Source of the DNA: Tethya wilhelma
Lineage: Eukaryota > Porifera > Demospongiae > Tethyida > Tethyidae
Assembly: GCA_964030475.1 (NCBI GenBank)
Contig: CAXIPT010000001.1
Coordinates: forward strand, 15,671,150 to 15,735,149
Direction: 5' to 3'
Length of the DNA: 64,000 bases
Position numbers and translations under genes: made by a program. Below the pieces are notes generated by a model. It made no database searches, was not told where the DNA came from, and saw only the letters and a program-made list of their open reading frames with translations. Of this stretch, positions 17,831-64,000 are shown in pieces (the stretch's first letter is position 1; each line of letters opens with the position of its first letter).

Positions 17831-17895
17831 GCAGAGAGATTGTCAAAGAGAAAGTCTATTTTTGAAGATCTTTCATCTATTCATAGGATCTCTTG

Positions 17896-20418
17896 ATGTC
17901 TAATAACCACGCATTGAGTGTCTTCACACACTCTTGTCTCTCTACTCCCAGAAACCCTCGAACAAATCTCCCAGCAACCCGCCTAGACGAACAACTCAAC
18001 CGATCAGCACCCCACCTGTCCTATCATGACAGACCTCACACCGCTACTGGTGTCTTCAGACACTCGAGGAGCCGGCAAAACGATGTAAGGACGTCTGGAA
18101 GCAACTCCCTTGAGGCACCACATCACAGTGTTAGTGGACACCACGCCACACTCCATTTTCCTCACTGGGACTCATCATTGCCCTCTGAACCTCACAGTAC
18201 CTCTCAAAAGTTTCTATCTCAGTCAACAGGGTCTGTTCCAAAGAGCCATCACCCCCATCCTGATGTAATGTCTGGAAACATTCGTCCATCCACTAGTGGT
18301 GGTCACCAACAGGGTGGCAATTATTCTACGTTGTTTGCCACTCTTCTTGAGAGCAACTCTCTCCTTCGTGAGGAGATCAGGAAATTAAGAGAGGAGCAGA
18401 AACAAACCATAAGCACTGTCCAACAGCTCAATCGGCGTGATTGTGCCATTCAGACGAATGGAGTGAATGGTGTTCACTCATCTCTGTCCAACCACGAAAC
18501 AAACAACCACTCGGAGCATAACAGCAGTGCAGAGAATGGGGTCTCTCAGGGTCTACCACAGCGGTTGTTGGAGAACACATGGGTGGAGTCGTCATCTGAG
18601 CACAGTGAGGCCACTCTGCACACCTCCTCCAGTTCCTCACTAGCTCATCAAGAGCACAGCGCTCACAGCTCTTTGAACAGGGAAGGTCTTGGTCATGCAT
18701 TGAATGGTGATTTACACTCCCTCTCTTCGAGTTCATTGGAGAGTATATCTGTTGAAGAAGTTGACGCTGAGCAGATTCACATGGATTCTAATGATCCCAC
18801 ACCATTGGCAGAGCACCAAGAAGATGATGATGGTCTCATGTCCTCTTCTTCTGACGAATCGTCAATGGATTCGAGTACAACGTCAGAGAGTGGATCGAGA
18901 CTGGCTGCCGAAGAAGATCCCTTTGCCTCTCCCGGGGTAGTGGCCATTGAGAGAATGTGGGATGACTTTTCTGTTGATGAGTATGCACCGTACACACCTC
19001 GAAGACATGATGGCGATGAAAACACAAACTGCAATGGAAGGAAGAAGTGGACACCTAGGATCACTATACCCGAGCCATTCTCCATGACTATCCGTGATGC
19101 CAATTCACCAAAGCCAAAGAGTAGATCCATGCAGATGGCTGAAGAAGAACAGCTTAGGAGAGAAGCTCTTGAAGAAGCTGAGCTACGAAAGAAATTTCAC
19201 TCCTCTCCAGTTCCTGCCACCACATACTTGCCACTCTATGAGCTCATCAACGCCAAGAATGAACAGAGGAGAGAGCAGATCAAGCAATCTAGTAAGGCCA
19301 TACTCAAATCCACAGAAAAACCTTTCAGCTTTATGAAACGAGAGGAAGAGAAACGAAAGAACAAACTTGAGACTTTAAGACTGAGCCAAGAGTTTGAGAG
19401 AACCCAGGAGAAGAAAGAGAGCATGTTTGTTGCCAAACCAGTCCCCAAGCATGTCTTTGATTCAAGTGTGGATGACAGGATACAAGAACAAGAAGAGTAT
19501 CGTCAGATACGGATAAAAATGAGAGCCGAAGAGCTCCTCTCGAAATCCAAACTTCCCGGTAGCATGCAATTGAAAGGCAGAGAATACACTATTGGTGCTT
19601 TAAGAAAGAACAGACAGGAAGAAAATGAAGCCAAGGCGTTCTTAACAGAAGAACACAAGTTTCATCCAGCTATCTCTAGTGATGTTCCAGATTATGACCA
19701 GGCTTACTTTGAATTTCAGAATGAGCTAGCACGAAGAAAAGAAGCAAAGCGAACAACCACCACAAAACCTTTCTACTTACGAACACAGATGATTCCATCA
19801 AGAAAAGAACAAGTTGTAAAGGACATGGAAACAGATGAAGTAGCACTACCTGAGAACAGGTGGCCATTCACAGGATCAAGATCAAAGGTTACACGTTTAT
19901 CACCAAAACCGTCATCTAGCTCAGTAGCTTATCCAGCACAAATGACCAAGACAGCTAGAGTACGTGAGAGTCTAACTAAAGAAAAACTTGCTAGTGAATC
20001 GAAGAAAGAATTACTTGAGGAAGATGAAAAGAGGAGAAAGAAAGAACGTGAAAAGTTTGTACGTCAATCTGTTACCCAGAAGAGCCTCTCTCTTGATCCT
20101 ACAGCTTGGCTGGAAGAGAAGAAACGGCAGAAGCTTCAAGAAGTCAGGTAAGATTATTGCTCTTTTGCACTTAGTATTAATGTATTCAATACTCTTGACA
20201 CTATGCTGCTTTCTTTAAATAGGCGCCTTGATAAGGAACGTCAAGACAAGTACAACCAAGAACTGCAGGAGATCAAAGAAAGAGTACAGTCTAGGCCACT
20301 TCTCTTGGAGCAGACCTCACTCAAGTCAGCAATACGTTCAGCTGAATCAAAATACAATGCTGCTTTGAAGAATGCTGGACTTTCTGAAAATGATATTCAA
20401 GCACTAACCACAACCTAA
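17896..20418 (+). CDS. FAM161-family ciliary/centrosomal protein
   Basis: Two exons (17896-20147 and 20223-20418) join in frame to 815 residues. Residues 1-380 are low-complexity, Ser/His-rich with acidic patches, and unlike the family. From about 387 to 640 the FAM161 (UPF0564) domain is clear: PEPFSMTIRD, the KKFHSSPVPA segment followed by YLPLYELI, KPFSFMKREEE, VPKHVFDSSV, the YRQIRIKMRAEELL segment and KPFYLRT. The C-terminal exon has RPLLLEQ and a short SENDIQAL end, as in vertebrate FAM161A/B. The domain is highly charged and coiled-coil-like. The family binds microtubules and localises to the basal body and connecting cilium. The sequence does not decide between A and B, and a pre-duplication ortholog is likely. 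Confidence 0.9.
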
Positions 20419-29214: not shown

Positions 29215-30472
29215 GGTTTGACGATGCACGCTACCATTCTGGCCTACATGTTCACTCTGGTGGAAGAGGACAAGATATCTGCCCCTCTCTTCAACAGCAG
29301 CTCTATTCAAGCTGCTAGTAACGCTGTCTTTGTGCAGAAGTATGTAGCAGAGTTGTTGAAACAGGCCTTCCCACACTTAAAAGAGTAAGCATCATAATTC
29401 TGTACCTGCACATATCTGTTGTGTTAACCTAAGGGTTTTACTTCAAAAAAAGAATGGTGCCATTTTTTCAATGAGCTCTTTGTGGTTTGTGTAAACATGA
29501 CTGATTAGTGAAATAATAGTCACCTTTACAGGGATATGCATGAATGTAATTGTGATACAGCATCCTGTATGCCCTGTAACATGTCAAGTGGTTTTAGTGT
29601 TCTGAAGAGCTTACACAAATTCCTGGAAGTGTTTCAGATGATTGCAAAAAGCTTGTGGCCTAACCAGTTCCTGTTCGTGCCAACAATGGTCATTGTATGT
29701 TCATTTCGGTGGTTAGTTTGTTCCATAATTTCATTTTTAATACCAATCATTGTGTCTCCATTTCAGTGCCCAGCTGAAAGTTTATTTCATAATCTTATTT
29801 TAAATACCAACCATTTCATTTACTCTATTCAGTGCCCACGGAAAGTTTATTCTATAATCTCATTTTTAATACCAACCATTGTGTCTCCATTTCAGTGCCC
29901 AGCTGAAAGTGTTCATTGAGGGACTCTTTCATCTTGACACAGACATACCTCAATTCAAGGAACACCTCAGAGATTTCCTTGTCCAAATCAAGGTAGGTTC
30001 GATCTTCAAACAATTGTTAGTGGTTTTGGTAGTATGATACAATCTTGAAAGGGTAGCTTTGCAATCACAATTGCCACTCCATGACTTCATGACTATAAGT
30101 GAGTATCCTGTCTGCATACAAGATTGGCATGATCATCCACCTCAATAACAAAGCCTAAACAAACTTTTTAGGTTGACCTCTTCAAGCCACATTGCCCTTT
30201 CCATAGCCAATATGGTTTTGTTTTTGCAAACATTTACCTGCACTATACCAACTCTCCACTGCTAATAACTGTTCCTCAATGATTGTGATTTGTGTACCTT
30301 ACATGCTACTCGTTTCATCCACTAGGAGTACGCTGGGGACGACCCTGCTGATCTTTTCCTGGAGGAGAGAGAACAGCAACTGAGGCAAGCCGCTGATGAT
30401 AAGCGTCAACAACAGCTCTCGGTGCCTGGCATGGTCAACCCTCATGACAGACCAGACGAGATGCAAGAATAG
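21219..30472 (+). CDS. XPO1: exportin-1 (CRM1), nuclear export receptor
   Basis: 26 exons: 21219-21338, 21408-21582, 21792-21853, 21987-22031, 22579-22694, 22882-22996, 23253-23372, 23469-23523, 24413-24489, 24582-24740, 24941-25132, 25439-25577, 25795-25898, 26225-26403, 26473-26608, 26876-27007, 27153-27239, 27341-27445, 27556-27634, 27702-27808, 27968-28090, 28270-28417, 28745-28972, 29216-29384, 29896-29992, 30326-30472. All phases agree and the sum is 3216 nt, 1071 residues, the same length as human XPO1. Exportin-1 binds leucine-rich export signals together with RanGTP and carries proteins and RNPs through the nuclear pore. Visible hallmarks are the HEAT-repeat body, the NES-groove region with Cys525 (codon 26318-26320; human Cys528, the leptomycin B target) in LLGLCEQK, and the C-terminal [10 protein letters not shown]. 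The donor of exon 16 (GTTAGC) is weak and was set by alignment length. The start could be 21219 or the next ATG at 21228. Confidence 0.98.
24211..24360. mobile_element. 150-bp MITE-like element in an XPO1 intron
   Basis: About 41-bp terminal inverted repeats beginning AGAGGAGGTACGACACGAGT, with few mismatches. CA repeats flank both ends (24188-24210 and 24362-24400), so the element probably inserted into a CA microsatellite or carries CA target duplications. It lies in the intron before exon 9 and ends about 52 bp before that exon's acceptor. Confidence 0.85.
25751..25784. repeat. GT microsatellite before XPO1 exon 13
   Basis: About 17 GT units end 10 bp upstream of the acceptor of exon 13; a short pyrimidine stretch (TCTCTTTCAG) separates them. 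Confidence 0.9.
29144..29212. repeat. GT microsatellite abutting XPO1 exon 24 acceptor
   Basis: About 34 GT units (with one N at 29174) run directly into GTTAG and the exon start at 29216. There is no normal pyrimidine tract between repeat and acceptor. Confidence 0.9.
29722..29910. repeat. XPO1: three tandem copies of an XPO1 acceptor region
   Basis: A segment of about 63-66 bp containing the acceptor and first bases of exon 25 (TTCAG, then TGCCCAGCTGAAAGT or a variant) occurs three times, with AG at 29766, 29832 and 29895. Only the third continues into the conserved exon. Splicing to either of the first two would reach a TAA stop within about 13 codons. Confidence 0.9.
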
Positions 30473-55445: not shown

Positions 55446-58400
55446 ATGCCACAAACAACCCATGACAGCCCTTCTGAGATTCTCTCGACAACTTATCTAG
55501 ATCTAACTGCACTGAATTTGAACAAGGTAAGTACCATGATGTTCAATGTTTCTCTCTGTAACACCCAGGATCACCGCAGGATAGCACACCGTGGCGTGAG
55601 GCCGGAAACTTCACTTGATACATTGAAGGCAACTGAGAAATTCCAATTGGACAGAACCCAGCACTGAGGTATATGCATAAAGCATAGGAAATGTATTCTG
55701 TCATAATTTGTCAAACAGTACATCTATCAATGTATACCTTATGTGTCATGATGGTAGAAGATAATTTGGAGCCTCTTTCTTTGCTCCGTTTGAAAGGACC
55801 AATATGGTAAGGTGATGCCATTGCTGATCTGTAAAATTTTTGTTCAGCTGTTAATTTCGTCTTATTCAGTCGGTGAGTTTTGCAGCGTGCATATTGATGT
55901 CATAGTCTGTTTAATTTCTCTTGTCCCTCACATGGTGGCACGCCCTGGACTGCTGTAATTCAACCAGTGGGTAAGTTGTTGCTGATTCTAGTTGATCCAC
56001 TATGTCTGTTGTTCCCATTCACTGTTTCTGACTCAGTCCACCTATTGTATTCATGTTGTTACAATTTTCATGTTACAATCCTTGATGATTGATGGCTTCA
56101 ATCACCACCACAGAATCCTGTAAGTTAATTGTTATATTGGACACATGCATGTGCATGTCTTTGCATGTTTTAATTCTCCTAATGATTTCCTTCCTCTTAT
56201 GTGTACCATAATACCGTGATCATCTAGTTTGTAAGTTGTCAGTATTGCTGTTTTGAGCTTGTCTGATTTATTTCTCTATTAATCTGCTGTGATTTCTATT
56301 TTGGATCGGCCAGAAAGTAAGTGTTTCGTATAAAAATACTGTTGTTTATAATCAGTCTCTTCCCAGCTGCATGATATGATATCTTTTCTTTCCCTTTAAT
56401 GTATATATATGATCACTTATGACTACTGGCCATTTTGAATCACCTATATATTTAGCGGGTAATTGTGTTTACAGTATTGTTTCAAGATTGTTTCTAAAAT
56501 GTTTAATTCTCTTCTCTCAATGTATGTTCTAAAAATGGTATCATGACTAACATTAACCCAGCAGGTAAGTTAATTGCTTTTGTATTAATTTTGAAATGTA
56601 TCTTAGCTAGCCGTTTACTAATTTCTTTCTTCTACCATGCAGTCTCATGCAAAGACCAAGAAGACTGTAAGTTGCTGTCATTCATTATTATTAATGGCTA
56701 AAGCTGTATACAAGTGATTTATATTGATCCCTTCTAGCTTGAATTGTAAATCACACGTTAGGTGAAACTAAGTTGTTTTTTTTTTTGACAATTGATGCAT
56801 GCTTATAGTTTTAATTCCAAGTGAATTAATGTGTTGGTTGCTTAATTTTTCTCTCGTATGTATCATGTTCTGTGAATGCTATTTTGAATAACCCAGGATG
56901 TAAGTTATGGTTATTGTTGAGTGCTGTGTCACAATGTTCATGTGTCTGTTGTTTGATTTCTTTCCCTCTTATATACTATTCTGTATAAATGTCATTTGAA
57001 TAACCCAGCTGGTAAGTTGTGATCATTGTTGAGCGCTGTTTTTCTTGGTGTTGATGTGTCTGTTGTTTGATTTTTCTCCCTCTTATGTTTCATGTTCTGT
57101 GAATGGCAATTTGAATAACCCAGCCGGTAAGTTGTGGTCATTGTTAAGTGCTGTTTCTCAGAGTTGATGTGTCTGTTGTTTGATTTCTCTCCCTCTTATG
57201 TTTCATGTTCTGTGAATGCCAACATGAAACATAAGACTGTAAGTTGTGGTCATTGTTGAGTGCTGTTTCTCAGTGTTTAATATGCCTTTTATTTTTTTTC
57301 TCTCCCTCTTGTGCATCATGTTCTGTGAATGCCATTATAAACAACCAAGCGGGTAAGTTGTGGTCATTGTTGAGTGCTGTTTCTCAGTGTTGATGTGTCT
57401 ATTGCTTGATTTTTGCTACTGCTTATATATCATGTTATGTGAATGCCAATTTGAATAACCCAGGATGTAAGTTGTGGTCATTGTTATGTGCTGTTTCTCA
57501 GTGTTGATGTGTCTGTTGATTGATTTCTCTCTCTCTCTTATTTGTCATGATCTGTGAATGCCAATTTGAATAACCCAGCAGGTAAGTTGTGGTCATTGAA
57601 TTGTTAAGTGCTGCATGTTTCTCAGTGTTGATGTGTCTGTTGTTTGATTTCTCTCCCTCTTACGTATCATGTTCTGTGAATGCCATTTTGAACAACCCAG
57701 AATGTAAGTTGTGGTCGTTGTTGAGTACTGTTTCTCAGTGTTGATGTGTCTGTTGATTGATTTCTCTCTCTCTCTTATTTGTCATGATCTGTGAATGCCA
57801 ATTTGAATAACCCAGCAGGTAAGTTGTGGTCATTGAATTGTTAAGTGCTGCATGTTTCTCAGTGTTGATGTGTCTGTTGTTTGATTTCTCTCCCTCTTAC
57901 GTATCATGTTCTGTGAATGCCATTTTGAACAACCCAGAATGTAAGTTGTGGTCGTTGTTGAGTACTGTTTCTCAGTGTTGATGTGTCTGTTGTTTGATTT
58001 CTCTCCCTCTTATGTTTCATGTTCTGTGAATGCCAACATGAAACATAAGACTGTAAGTTGTGGTCATTGTTGAGTGCTGTTTCTCAGTGTTTAATATGCC
58101 TTTTATTTTTTTTCTCTCCCTCTTGTGCATCATGTTCTGTAAATGCCATTTTAAACAACCAAGCGGGTAAGTTGTGGTCATTGTTGAGTGCTGTTTCTCA
58201 GTGTTGATGTGTCTATTGCTTGATTTTTGCTACTGCTTATATATCATGTTATGTGAATGCCAATTTGAATAACCCAGGATGTAAGTTGTGGTCATTGTTA
58301 TGTGCTGTTTCTCAGTGTTGATGTGTCTGTTGTTTGATTTCTCTCTCTCTCTTATTTGTCATGATCTGTGAATGCCAATTTGAATAACCCAGCAGGTAAG

Positions 58401-61400
58401 TTGTGGTCATTGAATTGTTAAGTGCTGCATGTTTCTCAGTGTTGATGTGTCTGTTGTTTGATTTTTCTCCCTCTTATGTATCATGTTCTGTGAATGCCAA
58501 TTTGAATAACCCAGCCGGTAAGTTGTGGTCATTGCTGAATGCTGTTTCTCAGTGTTGATGCGTCTGTTGTTTGATTTCTCCCCCTCTAATGTATCATGGT
58601 CTTTGAATGCCAATTTGAATAACCCAGCCGGTGAGTAGTGGTCGTTGTTGAGTACTGTTTCTCAGTGTTGATGTACATGTCTGTTGTTTGATTTTACTAC
58701 TGCATATGTATCATGTTCTATGAATGCCATTTAAATAACCCAGGTCGTAAGTTGTGGTCGTTGTTGAGTGCTGTATCTCAGTGTTGATGTGTCTGCATGT
58801 TGTTTGATTTCTCTCCCTCTTATATGTTTCATGATCTGTGAATGCCAATTTGAATAACCCAGAAGGTAAGTTGTGGTCATTGAATAATTATCGTTGAGTG
58901 CTGTTTTTCAATGTTAATGTGTCTGCATGTTGTTTGATTTTCTCCCTCTTATGTATCATGTTCTCTGAATGCCATTTTGAATAACCAAGCGGGTAAGTTT
59001 TGGTTATTGTTGAGTCTGTGTCACAGTGCTTATATGTGTCTGTTGTTTGATTTCTCTCCCTCTTATGTATAATGTTCTGTGAATGCCAATTTGAATAACC
59101 CAGATCGTAAGTTGTGGTCGTTGTTGAGTGCTGTTTCTCAGTGTTGATTGTCTGTTGTTTGATTTTTCTCCCTCTTATGTATCATGTTCTATGAATGCCA
59201 ATTTAAATAACCCAGCCCGTAAGTTGTGGTCATTGTTGAGTGCTGTTTCTCAGTGTTGATGTGTCTGTTGTTGATTTTTCTCCCTCTTATGTATCATGTT
59301 CTCTGAATGCCATTTTGAATAACCCAGCCGGTAAGTTGTGGTCATTGCTGAGTGCTGTTTCTCAGTGTTGATGTGTCTCAGTGTTGTTTGATTTCTCTCC
59401 CTATTATGTATCATGTTCTATGAATGCTATTTTGAATAACTTAGCCGGTAAGTTGTGATCATTGTTAAGTGCTGTTTCTCAGAGTTGATGCATCTGTTGT
59501 TTGATTTTGCTACTGCTTATATACCATGTTCTGTGATTGCCAATTTGAACAACCCAGGATGTAAGTTGTGGTCATTGTTGAGTACTGTTTCTCAGTGTTG
59601 ATGAGTCTATTGTTTGAGTTTTCTCCCTCTTATGTATCATGTTCTGTGAATGCCATTTTGAATAACCCAGAGGGTAAGTTGTGCATGGTCATGGTTGAGT
59701 GCTGTTTCTCAGTGTTGATGCGTCTGTTTTTTTGATTTCTCTCCCTCTCGTGCATCATGTTCGGTGAATGCCATTTTGAATAACCCAGAGGGTAAGTTGT
59801 GGTCATTGTTGAGTGCTGTTTCTAAATGTTAATGTGTCTGTTGTTTGATTTCTCTCTCTTATTTGTCATGATCTGTGAATGCCATTTTGAATAACCCAGC
59901 CGGTAAGTTACAGTCATTGTTAAGTGCTGTTTCTCAGAGTTGATGCATCTGTTGTTTGATTTTGCTACTGCTTATGTACCATGTTCTGTGAATGCCAATT
60001 TGAACAACCCAGGATGTAAGTTGTGGTCGTTGTTGAGTACTGTTTCTCAGTGTTGATGTGTGTGTTGTTTGATTTCTCTCCCTCTCAGTATGTTTCACGT
60101 TCTGTGAATGCCAACATGAAACATAAGACTGTAAGTTGTGGTCATTGTTGAGTGCTGTTTCTCAGTGTTTATGCCTTTTATTTTTTTCTCTCCCTCTTGT
60201 GCATCATGTTCTGTGAATGCCATTTTAAACAACTAAGCGGGTAAGTTGTGGTCATTGTTGAGTGCTGTTTCTCAATGTTGATGTGTCTATTGCTTGATTT
60301 TGCTCCTGCTTATATATCATGTTATGTGAATGCCAATTTGAATAACCCAGGATGTAAGTTGTGGTTATTGTTATGTGCTGTTTCTAAATGTTAATGTGCA
60401 TGTCTGTTGTTTGATTTCTCTCTCTTATTTGTCGTGATCTGTGAATGCCATTTTGAATAACCCAGCCAGTAAGTTGTGGTCATTGCTGAGTGCTGTTTCT
60501 CAGTGTTGATGCGTCTGTTGTTTGATTTCTCCCCCTCTTATGTATCATGGTCTTTGAATGCCAATTTAAATAACCCAGCCGGTAAGTAGTGGTCGTTGTT
60601 GAGTACTGTTTCTCAGTGTTGATGTGTCTGTTATTTGATTTTGCTACTGCATATGTATCATGTTCTATGGATGCCATTTGAATAACCCAGCCCGTAAGTT
60701 GTGGTCGTTGTTGAGTGCTGTATCTCAGTGTTGATGTGTCTGTTGTTTGATTTCTCTCCCTCTTACGTTTCATGATCTGTGAATGCCAATTTGAATAACC
60801 CAGCCCGTAAGTTGTGGTCATTGCTGAGTGCTGTTTCTCAGTGTTGATGCGTCTGTTGTTTGACTTCTCCCCCTCTTATGTATCATGGTCTTTGAATGCC
60901 AATTTGAATAACCCAGCCGGTAAGTAGTGGTTGTTGTTGAGTACTGTTTCTCAGTGTTGATGTGTCTGTTGTTTGATTTTGCTACTGCATATGTATCATG
61001 TTCTATGAATGCCATTTGAATAACCCAGGCCGTAAGTTGTGGTCGTTGTTGAGTGCTGTATCTCAATGTTGATGTGTCTGTTGTTCGATTTCTCTCCCTC
61101 TTATGTTTCATAATCTGTGAATGCCAATTTGAATAACCCAGAAGGTAAGTTGTGGTCATAGAATAATTATTATTGAGTGCTGTTTCTCATGCAGTATGTG
61201 TCTGTTTGATTTTTCTCCCTCTTATGTATCATGTTCTGTGAATGCCATTTTGAAAAACCCAGCCAGTAAGTTGTGGTCATTGTTGAGTGCTGTTTCTCAG
61301 TGTTGATGCGTCTGTTTTTTTGATTTCTCTCCCTCTCGTGCATCATGTTTGGTTAATGCCATTTTGAATAACCCAGAGGGTAAGTTGTGGCCATTGTTGA

Positions 61401-64000
61401 GTGCTGTTTTTTAGTGATGATGCATCTGTGGTTTGGTTTCTCTCCCTCTTATGTATCATGTTCTTTGAATGCCAATTTGAATAACTTAGCTGGTAAGTTG
61501 TGGTCTGCTGTTTCTCAGTGTTGATGTGTCTGTTATTTGATTTCTCTCCCTCTTATGTACCATTTTCTATGAATGCCAATTTAAATAACCCAGCCGGTAA
61601 GTTGTGGTAATTATTGAGTGCTGTTTCTCAGTGTTGATCAGTTCTTCGATTTCTCTCCCTCTTATATATTTCATGTTCTATGGATCCCATTTTGAATAAC
61701 CCAGTTGGTAAGTTGTGCATGGTCATTGTTGAGTGCTGTTTCTCAGTGTTGATGCGTCTGCATTTTGTTTGATTTATCTCTAACTTATGTATCAATATAA
61801 TTGGCAGACACATCAACACCATACATGATAGCCAACAATGACTTACCATCTGCATCATTTATTAAAAATGTCATTTATACAAAAACATTGATTTTTTCCT
61901 CTTCGTTAAATATATGCACACCAATTACAGCCACCTCTCAGTGATGAACTGCTAACAGGTATATCAACGGTGCAGAGTTTTTGGGATCATAAGATAGTAA
62001 AGAGAATCCAGTTTCATGAAAATAAAGCTTGATTATAGCCTTGATTGTTTTTTATATATAGTTTGACAATACATGTGTATGATAATGTTAATTGCCTATA
62101 AATATAGCCTTGCATGATTGTTAATTGTTTGTTTTTGTTTTTTTTTAGTATTCTGTATATCTTAAAAATGTGTATGATAATGTTGCATATATAATTGTCA
62201 CTATACTATTATATAGCTGACTATACTGAAGCTCTCCAATTGGGTCAAGTCCTTGTGGCCTATGCCCGTCTTGTGATGATTGGTCCTGGTGGTGTTGGAA
62301 AAACAAGTCTCTTGAATGGACTTAAGAACACACCTCTCCCTCTAGCCAACAGCACTCAACTTGCAGAGACTTCAACTGTTAGACCTCAAAAATGGAGTCG
62401 TGCAACTGGAGCCCCAGAAAGCCCATGGATAGATGTAACTGAAGATGATGAAACTGATGAAATTGTTGGATTGGTGCAACTAGTGAGGAATGTTAGCACT
62501 GGGGAAACTGAATCATCTCGTTTTGTTGCTGTGGTAGAAGCTGCAGCTGGTGCAGCTATACAGCATATTGCACATAAAAAAGAAGCTTATGGATACCCAG
62601 GTGAAGTGAAGGAGACTATTGATGAAATTTTGTCTCGTGCTGTTAGAGTTCAAAAAAGAAACCCTCGTGCTCAAGCTCCAGAGTCGGAGGTGATGTTACA
62701 TGTGTGGGATTGTGGTGGCCAGCCTGTGTTCCTGGATGTTCTTCCTCCTTTCCTGACATCCAGGACAATGTTCATGCTGATGTTTGATGCAAGCAAAAAT
62801 CTACATGAAAATTGTATTGCCTTGTCTAACCAAGATGGTATTGTTATTCGATCAGAGCAATATCACAACACCACTACCATGGAGCTTCTTCTGCAGTGGA
62901 TGGCAACTATTCATGCTACTCTAACAAAGTGCAGCAGCTCTTTGGAACAAAGTAGTACAGAAGTGACTGACAATGCCCGATTCCCTCGCATTGTTCCCAT
63001 TGGAACACATGGGGACCAACCTTCAGTTCAATCACGGAAGGAAGAAATTCTGCTGGAGATCAGTTCAGGATGCCAGAGCAAAGCCTTTGCTTATCTCGTG
63101 AGACATGGTGTTATTGTTGACAACACTAAAGCTGGTCAAGGGGAAAACGAAGATCCTGCATTCAAGCAAGTCCGCAAAGAAGCGTTCAATTTTGTGAATG
63201 AAAACTTGAAAATCCCAACACCTATCACTTGGGTACTATTTCGAAAGGTTTTCAAGAAAATGTCAACAGCGAGACCATTTTTTCTGCTAAAAGATGTGAT
63301 CGAAATTGCCCAAGCTTGTGGCGTCAGAGAAGAGGCAGTTGAAAGTGTCCTAAAATTTTATCACCAACTGGCTGTCTTCTTTCACTATGCCCATATCCCT
63401 AGCATGAAGAATTATGTCATTGCTGATATTCAGTGGCTTCTCAATCACCTCGCCAAAATTTTAGCCCTTGAAGGCTTTCAACATAACAGCAGTTCACTTT
63501 TATGGAAACCCCTTCAGGAGAGAGGAATTCTTCTTGAGTCTCTCTGTGTAGAAGTTTGGAAAGGCAGTGAGCTTTCACAAGCCCTCCTCGATCTAATGGA
63601 GAACTTTCTCCTCCTGGCTCCAATACACCCAAAGGTGTACCCTCATTATCCTGGCAGAGAATATTTCATCCCATCTGTTCTTAAGCCTTTTAATCCTGTG
63701 AAAGACACAGTGACACAAACTGTTGCCCTCAAGAAAGCTGCTCCATTGCATCTACGATTCAGCACATTCTACATTCCTCCTGGCTTCTTCTCTCGTTTGA
63801 CAACTGTACTGATTAAAGAAGAGAAGTGTTCTGTTCACTTTGACAATGAGGCAGTTTACAGAAATCGTATCTCACTCTTTTATGGTGAAGCAAGCGACCA
63901 AATTGACAGGATTACCATATCTCAGCTTTCTTCTAGCATCAAAATTGAGATCTCCAGAGTTCAACCCCGTTGCACTGGCCACCCCCTTTTCTCCTCAATA
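55446..64000 (+). CDS. Roc/COR-like GTPase with an intron-microexon array in its 5' part (partial at 3' end)
   Basis: Exon 1 (55446-55526) has 27 codons (MPQTTHDSPSEIL start) and ends AAG|GTAAGT in phase 0. A 27-nt exon may follow (55569-55595). Then come 49 three-nucleotide exons, one 6-nt exon (56114-56119) and one 24-nt exon (56643-56666), all in phase 0. Then a 28-nt exon (61931-61958, PPLSDELLT, phase 1 out) and a last exon from 62217 that is open to the window end (595 codons). That exon has a P-loop (GPGGVGKTS, 62282), the G3-type WDCGGQ (62705-62722) and a G4-like GTHGDQ (63002-63019), then a COR-like region. These fit the Roc GTPases of ROCO/MFHAS1-type signalling proteins. The phase of every piece agrees, which is the main evidence that exon 1 and the GTPase belong to one gene. 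The frame is absent from a stop-to-stop list only because it runs off the end. Downstream domains are unknown. Confidence 0.75.
55870..56899 (+). other. first part of the microexon series, non-repetitive introns
   Basis: In-frame exons bounded by AG and GT: TCG 55870, TGG 55968, AAT+CCT 56114, TTT 56228, AAA 56314, CGG 56456, CAG 56562, a 24-nt exon 56643-56666 (SHAKTKKT), GAT 56897. The introns here are 78-230 bp and show little similarity to one another apart from splice signals. Donors are GTAAGT except GTGAGT after 55872 and GTAATT after 56458. Confidence 0.65.
56897..61710 (+). repeat. tandem array of ~113-bp intron+codon units, about 43 copies
   Basis: Each unit runs GTAAGTTGTGGTCATTGTTG, then TGCTGTTTCTCAGTGTTGAT, a pyrimidine tract (TTTCTCTCCCTCTT), a TGAATGCCAATTTGAATAAC segment and CCCAG, then exactly three bases, then the next GTAAGT. 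Triplet positions: GAT 56897, CTG 57009, CCG 57124, ACT 57236, CGG 57350, GAT 57464, CAG 57579, AAT 57701, CAG 57816, AAT 57938, ACT 58050, CGG 58164, GAT 58278, CAG 58393, CCG 58515, CCG 58628, GTC 58744, AAG 58863, CGG 58990, ATC 59104, CCC 59216, CCG 59328, CCG 59445, GAT 59558, AGG 59671, AGG 59789, CCG 59900, GAT 60013, ACT 60128, CGG 60238, GAT 60351, CCA 60466, CCG 60579, CCC 60691, CCC 60804, CCG 60917, GCC 61029, AAG 61142, CCA 61263, AGG 61377, CTG 61490, CCG 61594, TTG 61705. Unit length varies from 104 to 127 bp, the triplet length does not. Confidence 0.95.
61800..61860 (-). repeat. inverted fragment of the array unit
   Basis: GACACATCAACACCATACAT and the following ACAATGACTTAC are the reverse complement of the unit's start (GTAAGTCATTGT) and of its GTTGATGTGTC segment. 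It marks the 3' edge of the array. The rest of 61711-62216 holds the 28-nt exon at 61931 and two ordinary introns. Confidence 0.75.

Follow-up and report, generated by a model that had tools for sequence, protein, structure and literature searches.

Runs of candidate single-codon exons in front of the Roc-COR exon of a small gene family in the sponge Tethya wilhelma

Introduction

Rows of very short exons have been described in the MEGs of schistosomes. A report on these genes puts the short exons at 10 to 20 in number and, in its text, at 6 to 81 bp in length (3 to 81 in the abstract), with 15 bp for most; the introns measure 0.1 to 5 kb (PMC10526429). Exons that are smaller still can be spliced in: two papers describe exons of 3 nt and 1 nt in Ncam, Drosophila TnT and Arabidopsis APC11 (PMC8042270, PMC4674806). 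In the latter, the authors suggest that the 1-nt exon of APC11 is included through intron definition and recursive splicing, the flanking introns being removed in turn. The consensus of recursive sites in the fly is given as (Y)nNCAG/GTAAGT (PMC5126111). Furthermore, the polyubiquitin gene UBC carries a tandem array of dual-specific splice sites, whose products differ in how many repeat units they contain (PMC10809524).

Our literature search, the coverage of which left most subscription journals and preprints outside, met with no description of 3-nt exons in series in the text available to it, and the nearest case there was that of three microexons in RPS24. According to one paper, annotation often passes over the smallest microexons (PMC8831610), so that runs of triplet exons may be overlooked elsewhere. 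For sponge gene models, one paper gives mean exon lengths (PMC4432959).

In this study we analyzed a stretch of DNA of 64,000 nucleotides, hereafter the window, which belongs to a genome assembly of 124.6 Mb in 204 contigs. It contains a gene that would resemble the MEGs in a predicted row of consecutive, very short and mostly symmetric exons (49 of 3 nt, one of 6 nt and one of 24 nt). It differs from them in that the predicted exons are mostly of 3 nt, that is, outside the range of 6 to 81 bp and far from the usual 15 bp, and in that the introns, of ~110 nt, are copies of a tandem repeat. The microexons of Ncam, TnT and APC11 are isolated in the accounts available, whereas dozens are predicted here in series. 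The sites are like the recursive AG/GT ratchet points (PMC5126111) in that an acceptor is followed by a donor that the first splice would regenerate. Those points, however, have zero length, AG being joined directly to GT, whereas 3 nt intervene here and every step would keep one codon. Finally, the repeat unit of UBC is coding (a ubiquitin monomer), whereas in the present gene the repeat is the intron and the predicted exon is one codon.

Results

Structure of the gene in the window

The features of the gene and of its relatives are listed in Table 1. We ran the regular expression AG-NNN-GT[A/G]A[G/T]T over the window and found 50 sites between 55446 and 62216. The remaining 57 kb held six, three of which sit within a single AAGT simple repeat, and the minus strand of the whole window held nine. 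One of the 50 sites, ACT at 56664, is the 3' end of a better exon of 24 nt with the acceptor TTCTTCTACCATGCAG, so that the total of 3-nt intervals is 49. Their donors are GTAAGT (46), GTGAGT (2) and GTAATT (1). The scan thus reproduced the count in the preliminary description of this DNA, which had listed 49 AG-bounded intervals of 3 nt, 46 of them with GTAAGT, as well as a 6-nt and a 24-nt exon.

Between the same positions, the spacing from AG to GTAAGT was 3 nt in 47 instances (ACT included), 0 in seven, 1 in three and 6 in two, and spacings of 12, 24 and 26 nt occurred once each; there was no instance of 2, 4, 5, 7 or 8 nt. As judged by eye, one of the 6-nt spacings is the end of the 24-nt exon, and the spacings of 0 and 1 nt come from AGs within triplets.

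Table 1. Positions of the candidate exons in the window, of the related loci and of the unit remnants
Feature	Position	Strand	Description
Candidate exon 1	55446..55526	+	27 codons (MPQTTHDSPSEILSTTYLDLTALNLNK), exits in phase 0, then GTAAGT
Optional candidate exon	55569..55595	+	27 nt, phase 0, DHRRIAHRG, donor GTGAGG
First six candidate 3-nt exons	55870..56564	+	outside the tandem repeat; TCG 55870, TGG 55968, TTT 56228, AAA 56314, CGG 56456, CAG 56562
Candidate 6-nt exon	56114..56119	+	AATCCT, two codons, then GTAAGT
Candidate 24-nt exon	56643..56666	+	TCTCATGCAAAGACCAAGAAGACT, 8 codons, then GTAAGT
Tandem repeat	56853..61794	+	113 bp, 43.1 copies, 80% matches
Last exon before Roc	61931..61958	+	28 nt, enters in phase 0, exits in phase 1
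Roc-COR exon	62217..64000	+	DYTEALQLGQVLVAYARLVMIGPGGVGKTS..., continues beyond the window end; Pfam match
Run-bearing loci, C8	C8:60215, C8:44580, C8:39550		the last a fragment
Run-bearing loci, C3	C3:5297182, C3:5313910, C3:5306374, C3:9566471		C3:5306374 a fragment
Other run-bearing loci	window gene, C78:67724		
Unit remnants, C8	near 38395 and 41122		
Unit remnants, C8		-	two
Unit remnants, C78	2270, 3766		2270 is the donor loss among the 174 spanning matches
Unit remnants, C3:9.57M	3821, 3992		
Unit remnant, C3			one place, with a masked base
Candidate 3-nt exons, C2	C2:11502398-11503011	-	AAA TAT CTG TTT AAT, phase 0, between coding exons

From exon 1 onward the reading phase stays at 0 without a break as far as the 28-nt exon, which exits in phase 1 for the Roc exon, as the preliminary description had it. 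Exon 1 is the least certain part of the gene model, because no relative of it was found in the C8 stretch, the sole stretch searched. The 28-nt exon joined with the next one reads PPLSDELLTA. The Roc-COR exon is open over 684 codons, and its product belongs to the Roco family, PF08477 (Roc) and PF16095 (COR-A) both scoring above the Pfam cut-offs. A Death domain was found in two stretches downstream of one paralog, C3:5313910. Beyond the window gene, where a single downstream stretch was tested, none was found. The longest complete open frame listed for the window is a different one, of 754 codons, at 17887-20151 (+).

Each unit of the 113-bp repeat consists of one intron of ~110 nt and one triplet, and 43 of the 3-nt exons fall inside the repeat, from 56897 to 61707. 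In many units a second acceptor-like sequence, TTTCTCAG, is seen by eye ~30 nt into the intron. Other tandem repeats of the window lie at 47-226 and 29715-29910 (61 and 64 bp), and these are without plus-strand AG-NNN-GTAAGT sites.

That the array is a tandem repeat agrees with another explanation, namely that it is a minisatellite within a single intron of 6.4 kb which is always removed whole, the splice-like core being a mere part of the repeat unit. Skipping of the whole array also preserves the frame, as this explanation would have it. The results below bear on this point.

Related loci in the same genome

A protein search of the genome with the Roc-COR exon gave 174 first-look candidates, of which 74 were scored. 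At least 74 Roc-COR matches were thus obtained, 11 of them at 54% identity or more and the other 63 at 29% or less. We read the upstream DNA of all 11 close matches, the distant 63 being outside the comparison, and a run of 3-nt sites was present upstream in nine of the 11. The two remaining matches, on C160, had no AG-NNN-GTAAGT within the 4.5 kb up to the contig end, and the fact that these Roc copies manage without an array speaks in favor of a dispensable minisatellite. The two copies (C160:1-5800) lie 48 nt apart; either a lost array or a join in the assembly may be the cause.

Some arrays had no Roc exon within the DNA that was fetched; these were found on C8 (16.5-20.9 kb, together with three minus-strand units) and on C3 (11.1-11.6 kb of the fetched stretch). 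In the C3 arrays the repeat unit is ~100 nt. Searching with the intron unit gave at least 138 matches, confined to C1, C8, C78 and C3 and all located at arrays, except for some at C78:59258-60298. The latter, on the plus strand, are opposite in strand to the C78 Roc array.

The gene at C8:44580 has six triplets, CTG GTG GTG TGG CCT TCT, at C8:43.7-44.4 kb, and the introns around them were not recognized by any half-profile (described below). In a model made by eye, this gene would have a possible start MGGNTASKEEK, then a 9-nt exon and then the triplets. Among the first six 3-nt exons of the window, the intron-end profiles recognized one, at 56456, and the early run on C3 (fetched stretch, 30.6-32.2 kb) had a recognizable intron end at a single place. 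Since these three runs are mostly without recognizable introns, the run of triplets outlives its intron sequence. That another Roc gene has a run whose introns are not repeats is something that a minisatellite does not predict.

The window gene and C8:60215, a sister with 91% identity, would encode linkers that look unrelated by eye. A search for spliced retrocopies found none and recovered only the known Roc exons. Spliced proteins from elsewhere gave 699 matches, and we read the N-termini of 70 among the matches listed. In 67 of the 70, at most 72 residues precede the GPGG[VA]GK motif, and no usable linker was seen. Three were longer (P0065, P0077 and P0094). P0065 resembles a spliced product, but was rejected as evidence on the linker because its identity of 43% is too distant; P0077 and P0094, distant Roc relatives, appear to have an uninterrupted N-terminus, which counts against the reading of the triplets as exons. 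No relatives were found in genome_contigs and viral_contigs.

We also compared the last exon before Roc at 10 loci, with acceptors chosen by eye. The lengths were 28, 34, 34, 28, 28, 46, 37, 31, 19 and 25 nt, that is, seven different lengths. All ten are of 3n+1 nt and open from phase 0, with about six independent cases among them, since those of the window, C8 (three) and C160 are closely related. Stops occurred in 18 of the 20 alternative readings, partly within the appended Roc bases. The chosen acceptor was in every case the 5'-most AG within 70 nt of the donor, and nine of the ten exons have other AGs downstream, many of which give a different phase. None of the ten has a GTAAGT donor.

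Search by intron sequence alone

For this search we masked AG, triplet and donor with N, so that the profiles rested on the intron bodies, and compared them with the fetched DNA; the training units themselves had been picked by motif. Core-spanning matches of the 113-bp profile numbered 43 in the window, 62 on C8, three on the C8 minus strand, 15 on C78 and five at C3:9.57M, and those of the 100-bp profile 46 on C3, which makes 174 for both profiles together. Matches that did not span the core (14 of 164 and 58 of 115) are not in this total. Also left out are those that the 113-bp profile gave on C3, those that the 100-bp profile gave elsewhere, and the C78 profile, whose results for the window and C78 were identical.

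The core, read by eye, was exactly 3 nt in 170 of the 174 spanning matches. The exceptions were one C8 unit with 6 nt (TCGGAG), one C78 unit in which the donor was lost, and two C3 matches without a readable core. In the window, all 43 spanning units retain AG-NNN-GTRAGT, 42 of them with GTAAGT. As a check, the left and right intron halves were searched separately. These half-profiles revealed nine remnants in which no core could be read (Table 1); a masked base is present in one. They also matched at the 6-nt unit, at a triplet whose donor is GTAATG and at the last exon of C3:5297182. Dead remnants of units therefore exist, but they are few.

These cores may be compared with recursive splice points. 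It could be supposed that they are such points, or decoys, which aid the removal or the timing of a long intron, and that the 3 nt are absent from the protein; indeed, a GTAAGT straight after an acceptor resembles a recursive site. However, such a function needs no 3-nt exon, and yet the 3 nt are kept in nearly all spanning units. Nor does it need triplets that are free of stops, and yet no stop was found among the 197 triplets analyzed below. We think it very improbable that the cores act in this way.

Variation within the unit

Next to the core, we examined the variation of each column. Since the units for these statistics were chosen by motif, which favors a low deviation at the splice sites, the masked-profile search serves as their check. 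Among 42 introns of the window, the eight splice-site columns (GTAAGT and AG) deviated from the consensus by 0.3% on average, the intron body by 8.5% and the triplet by 48%. None of 102 body columns reached the variability of the triplet columns, and indels were present in 32 of the 42 introns. The corresponding values were 0.6%, 6.9% and 52% in C3 (two of 89 body columns as variable as the triplet) and 0, 4.5% and 47% in the 10 introns of C78 (four of 111). In C8 they were 3.3%, 7.4% and 55%; the units being motif-chosen, we ascribe the splice-site figure to misaligned intron ends. Triplets thus vary far more than introns, and splice sites on average far less.

Body columns as invariant as the most variable splice column numbered 35 of 102 in the window, 78 of 102 in C8, 48 of 89 in C3 and 82 of 111 in C78. 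Conservation is therefore not unique to the splice sites, which counts against the reading of the triplets as coding exons; the proportion in the window, about one third, is in line with a minisatellite. What a minisatellite does not predict is that AG and GTAAGT are kept beside a triplet that varies freely.

The triplets also diverge several-fold faster than the flanking intron, a result that the preliminary description did not foresee. Among 105 units of the 113-bp family, the mean triplet distance was already 0.53 at an intron distance of 2-5% (41 pairs), and it reached a plateau at 0.66-0.74; nearest-neighbor units of this family gave 0.061 vs 0.308. In five arrays, 39 pairs of units were within four edits of each other in 99 flanking nt, and the triplets differed in 21 of these pairs (2/12, 0/2, 11/13, 2/4 and 6/8 by array). 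Where the flanks were identical, so were the triplets, in seven of seven pairs. Simple point mutation of the triplets was rejected, since several pairs with flanks 1-4 edits apart differ at two or three of the three bases. The rapid change could be due to hypermutation, to CpG effects or to selection that favors new codons, or the codon and the intron may have had separate histories.

A separate history would follow if mobile introns (introners) had been inserted between the codons of a formerly continuous exon, and the 21 of 39 pairs with often unrelated triplets between nearly identical flanks are what such insertion would leave. Yet the unit was not found dispersed, the matches obtained, at least 138, lying on four contigs, and this is not the pattern of introners in the sense of near-identical introns across many genes. 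In addition, insertions would not space themselves one codon apart. We regard this origin as the least probable of those considered, with hardly any weight.

Signs of coding

Stop codons were tested by column shuffling with 197 triplets of 13 arrays. No stop was present among the 197 triplets, against 6.87 expected (P=0.00016). Counting each triplet once per array, there were 0 of 109 against 4.24 expected (P=0.0066), and with distinct triplets 0 of 43 against 1.06 (P=0.30, not significant); the units are related by duplication, so that the stronger P values overstate the case. One of the 197 triplets (C78, donor GTTTGT) we read as a false site. Cys codons were also absent, from 198 triplets in all Roc arrays fetched. 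GTAAGT was the donor at 192 of 202 candidate microexon sites, these sites having been chosen for donors near GTAAGT.

The absence of stops is not predicted by a minisatellite. A 6.4-kb intron always removed whole, which the preliminary description had offered as the alternative, does not predict the constraints on splice sites, stops and phase, and we judge it unlikely, although it keeps more weight than recursive points or introners.

Triplet runs elsewhere in the genome

In order to look for similar runs, we searched the genome for chains of three donors, with strict GTAAGT and introns of about 90 to 120 nt. They occurred only at the Roc loci, at their arrays and in one gene on C2. The reversed controls gave 0 and 9, and 0 and 1, so that this lone match could be due to chance. 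A two-donor pattern gave 169 and 54 vs 67 and 63 in the controls. No chains of short introns were found elsewhere in the genome, and the reversed control pattern gave six.

The C2 gene has five predicted 3-nt exons (Table 1). By eye, it looks like a coiled-coil gene and its introns are non-repeat; a search with 117 residues gave two coiled-coil fragments. The flanking coding exons resemble a BTK-type zinc motif. With the five triplets, the spacing H-x10-CC-x9-C is that of ITK chain 2e6i (counted by eye), and these residues are presumably the zinc ligands. The match to the BTK motif scored 21.1 bits with the triplets and 20.1 without them, a difference that does not separate inclusion from skipping, and the PDB match 22.5 without them vs 20.9 with them. 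We therefore did not take the C2 gene as proof.

Discussion

From the comparison of sequences, we think it likely that the AG-NNN-GTAAGT runs before the Roc-COR exon are genuine single-codon exons of a small gene family. Spliced in serially, they would form a linker that joins the N-terminus to the GTPase and varies in both length and sequence. If spliced into mRNA, they would also fall under the definition of microexons, which are exons of 30 nt or less. That the triplets would be coding exons, as first proposed in the preliminary description, is well supported by the recurrence of the run at nine of the 11 close Roc matches, the splice sites kept while the introns diverged, the absence of stops, and the fixed phases.

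If the triplets are indeed single-codon exons, the arrays would have grown by local tandem duplication of one intron together with one codon. Splicing complexes cannot occupy both sides of 3 nt simultaneously, and the introns would therefore have to be removed singly. Each splice would then add one codon and leave a fresh codon/GTAAGT donor; that is, recursive splicing with a step of 3 nt, under intron definition. GTAAGT is the best match to U1, and the strong donors of the microexons fit such stepwise joining with a regenerated donor. The reasoning applied to APC11 (PMC4674806) leads to the same scheme when it is extended to the array. Because any codon could be omitted without a frameshift, the transcripts of one gene may differ in their linkers. 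The fast replacement of codons may in turn reflect selection for new linker sequences.

A fuller picture can be offered only tentatively, and we hold it somewhat less probable than even. In this picture, duplicated cassettes of intron and codon would make up a codon-per-exon family, with up to 49 single-codon exons per paralog and a codon that is exchanged several-fold faster than the intron around it, and 3-nt recursive splicing with optional skipping would place very many different linkers before the Roc-COR switch.

If transcripts confirm the single-codon exons, it would mean that an exon can shrink to a single codon and that dozens of such exons can follow one another. The family would then offer a natural test of how low the limits of exon recognition and intron definition lie, in a system whose geometry all but forces stepwise splicing. 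It would also provide a case of protein diversity through intron duplication, in a Roc-COR family with one member that has Death-domain stretches downstream.
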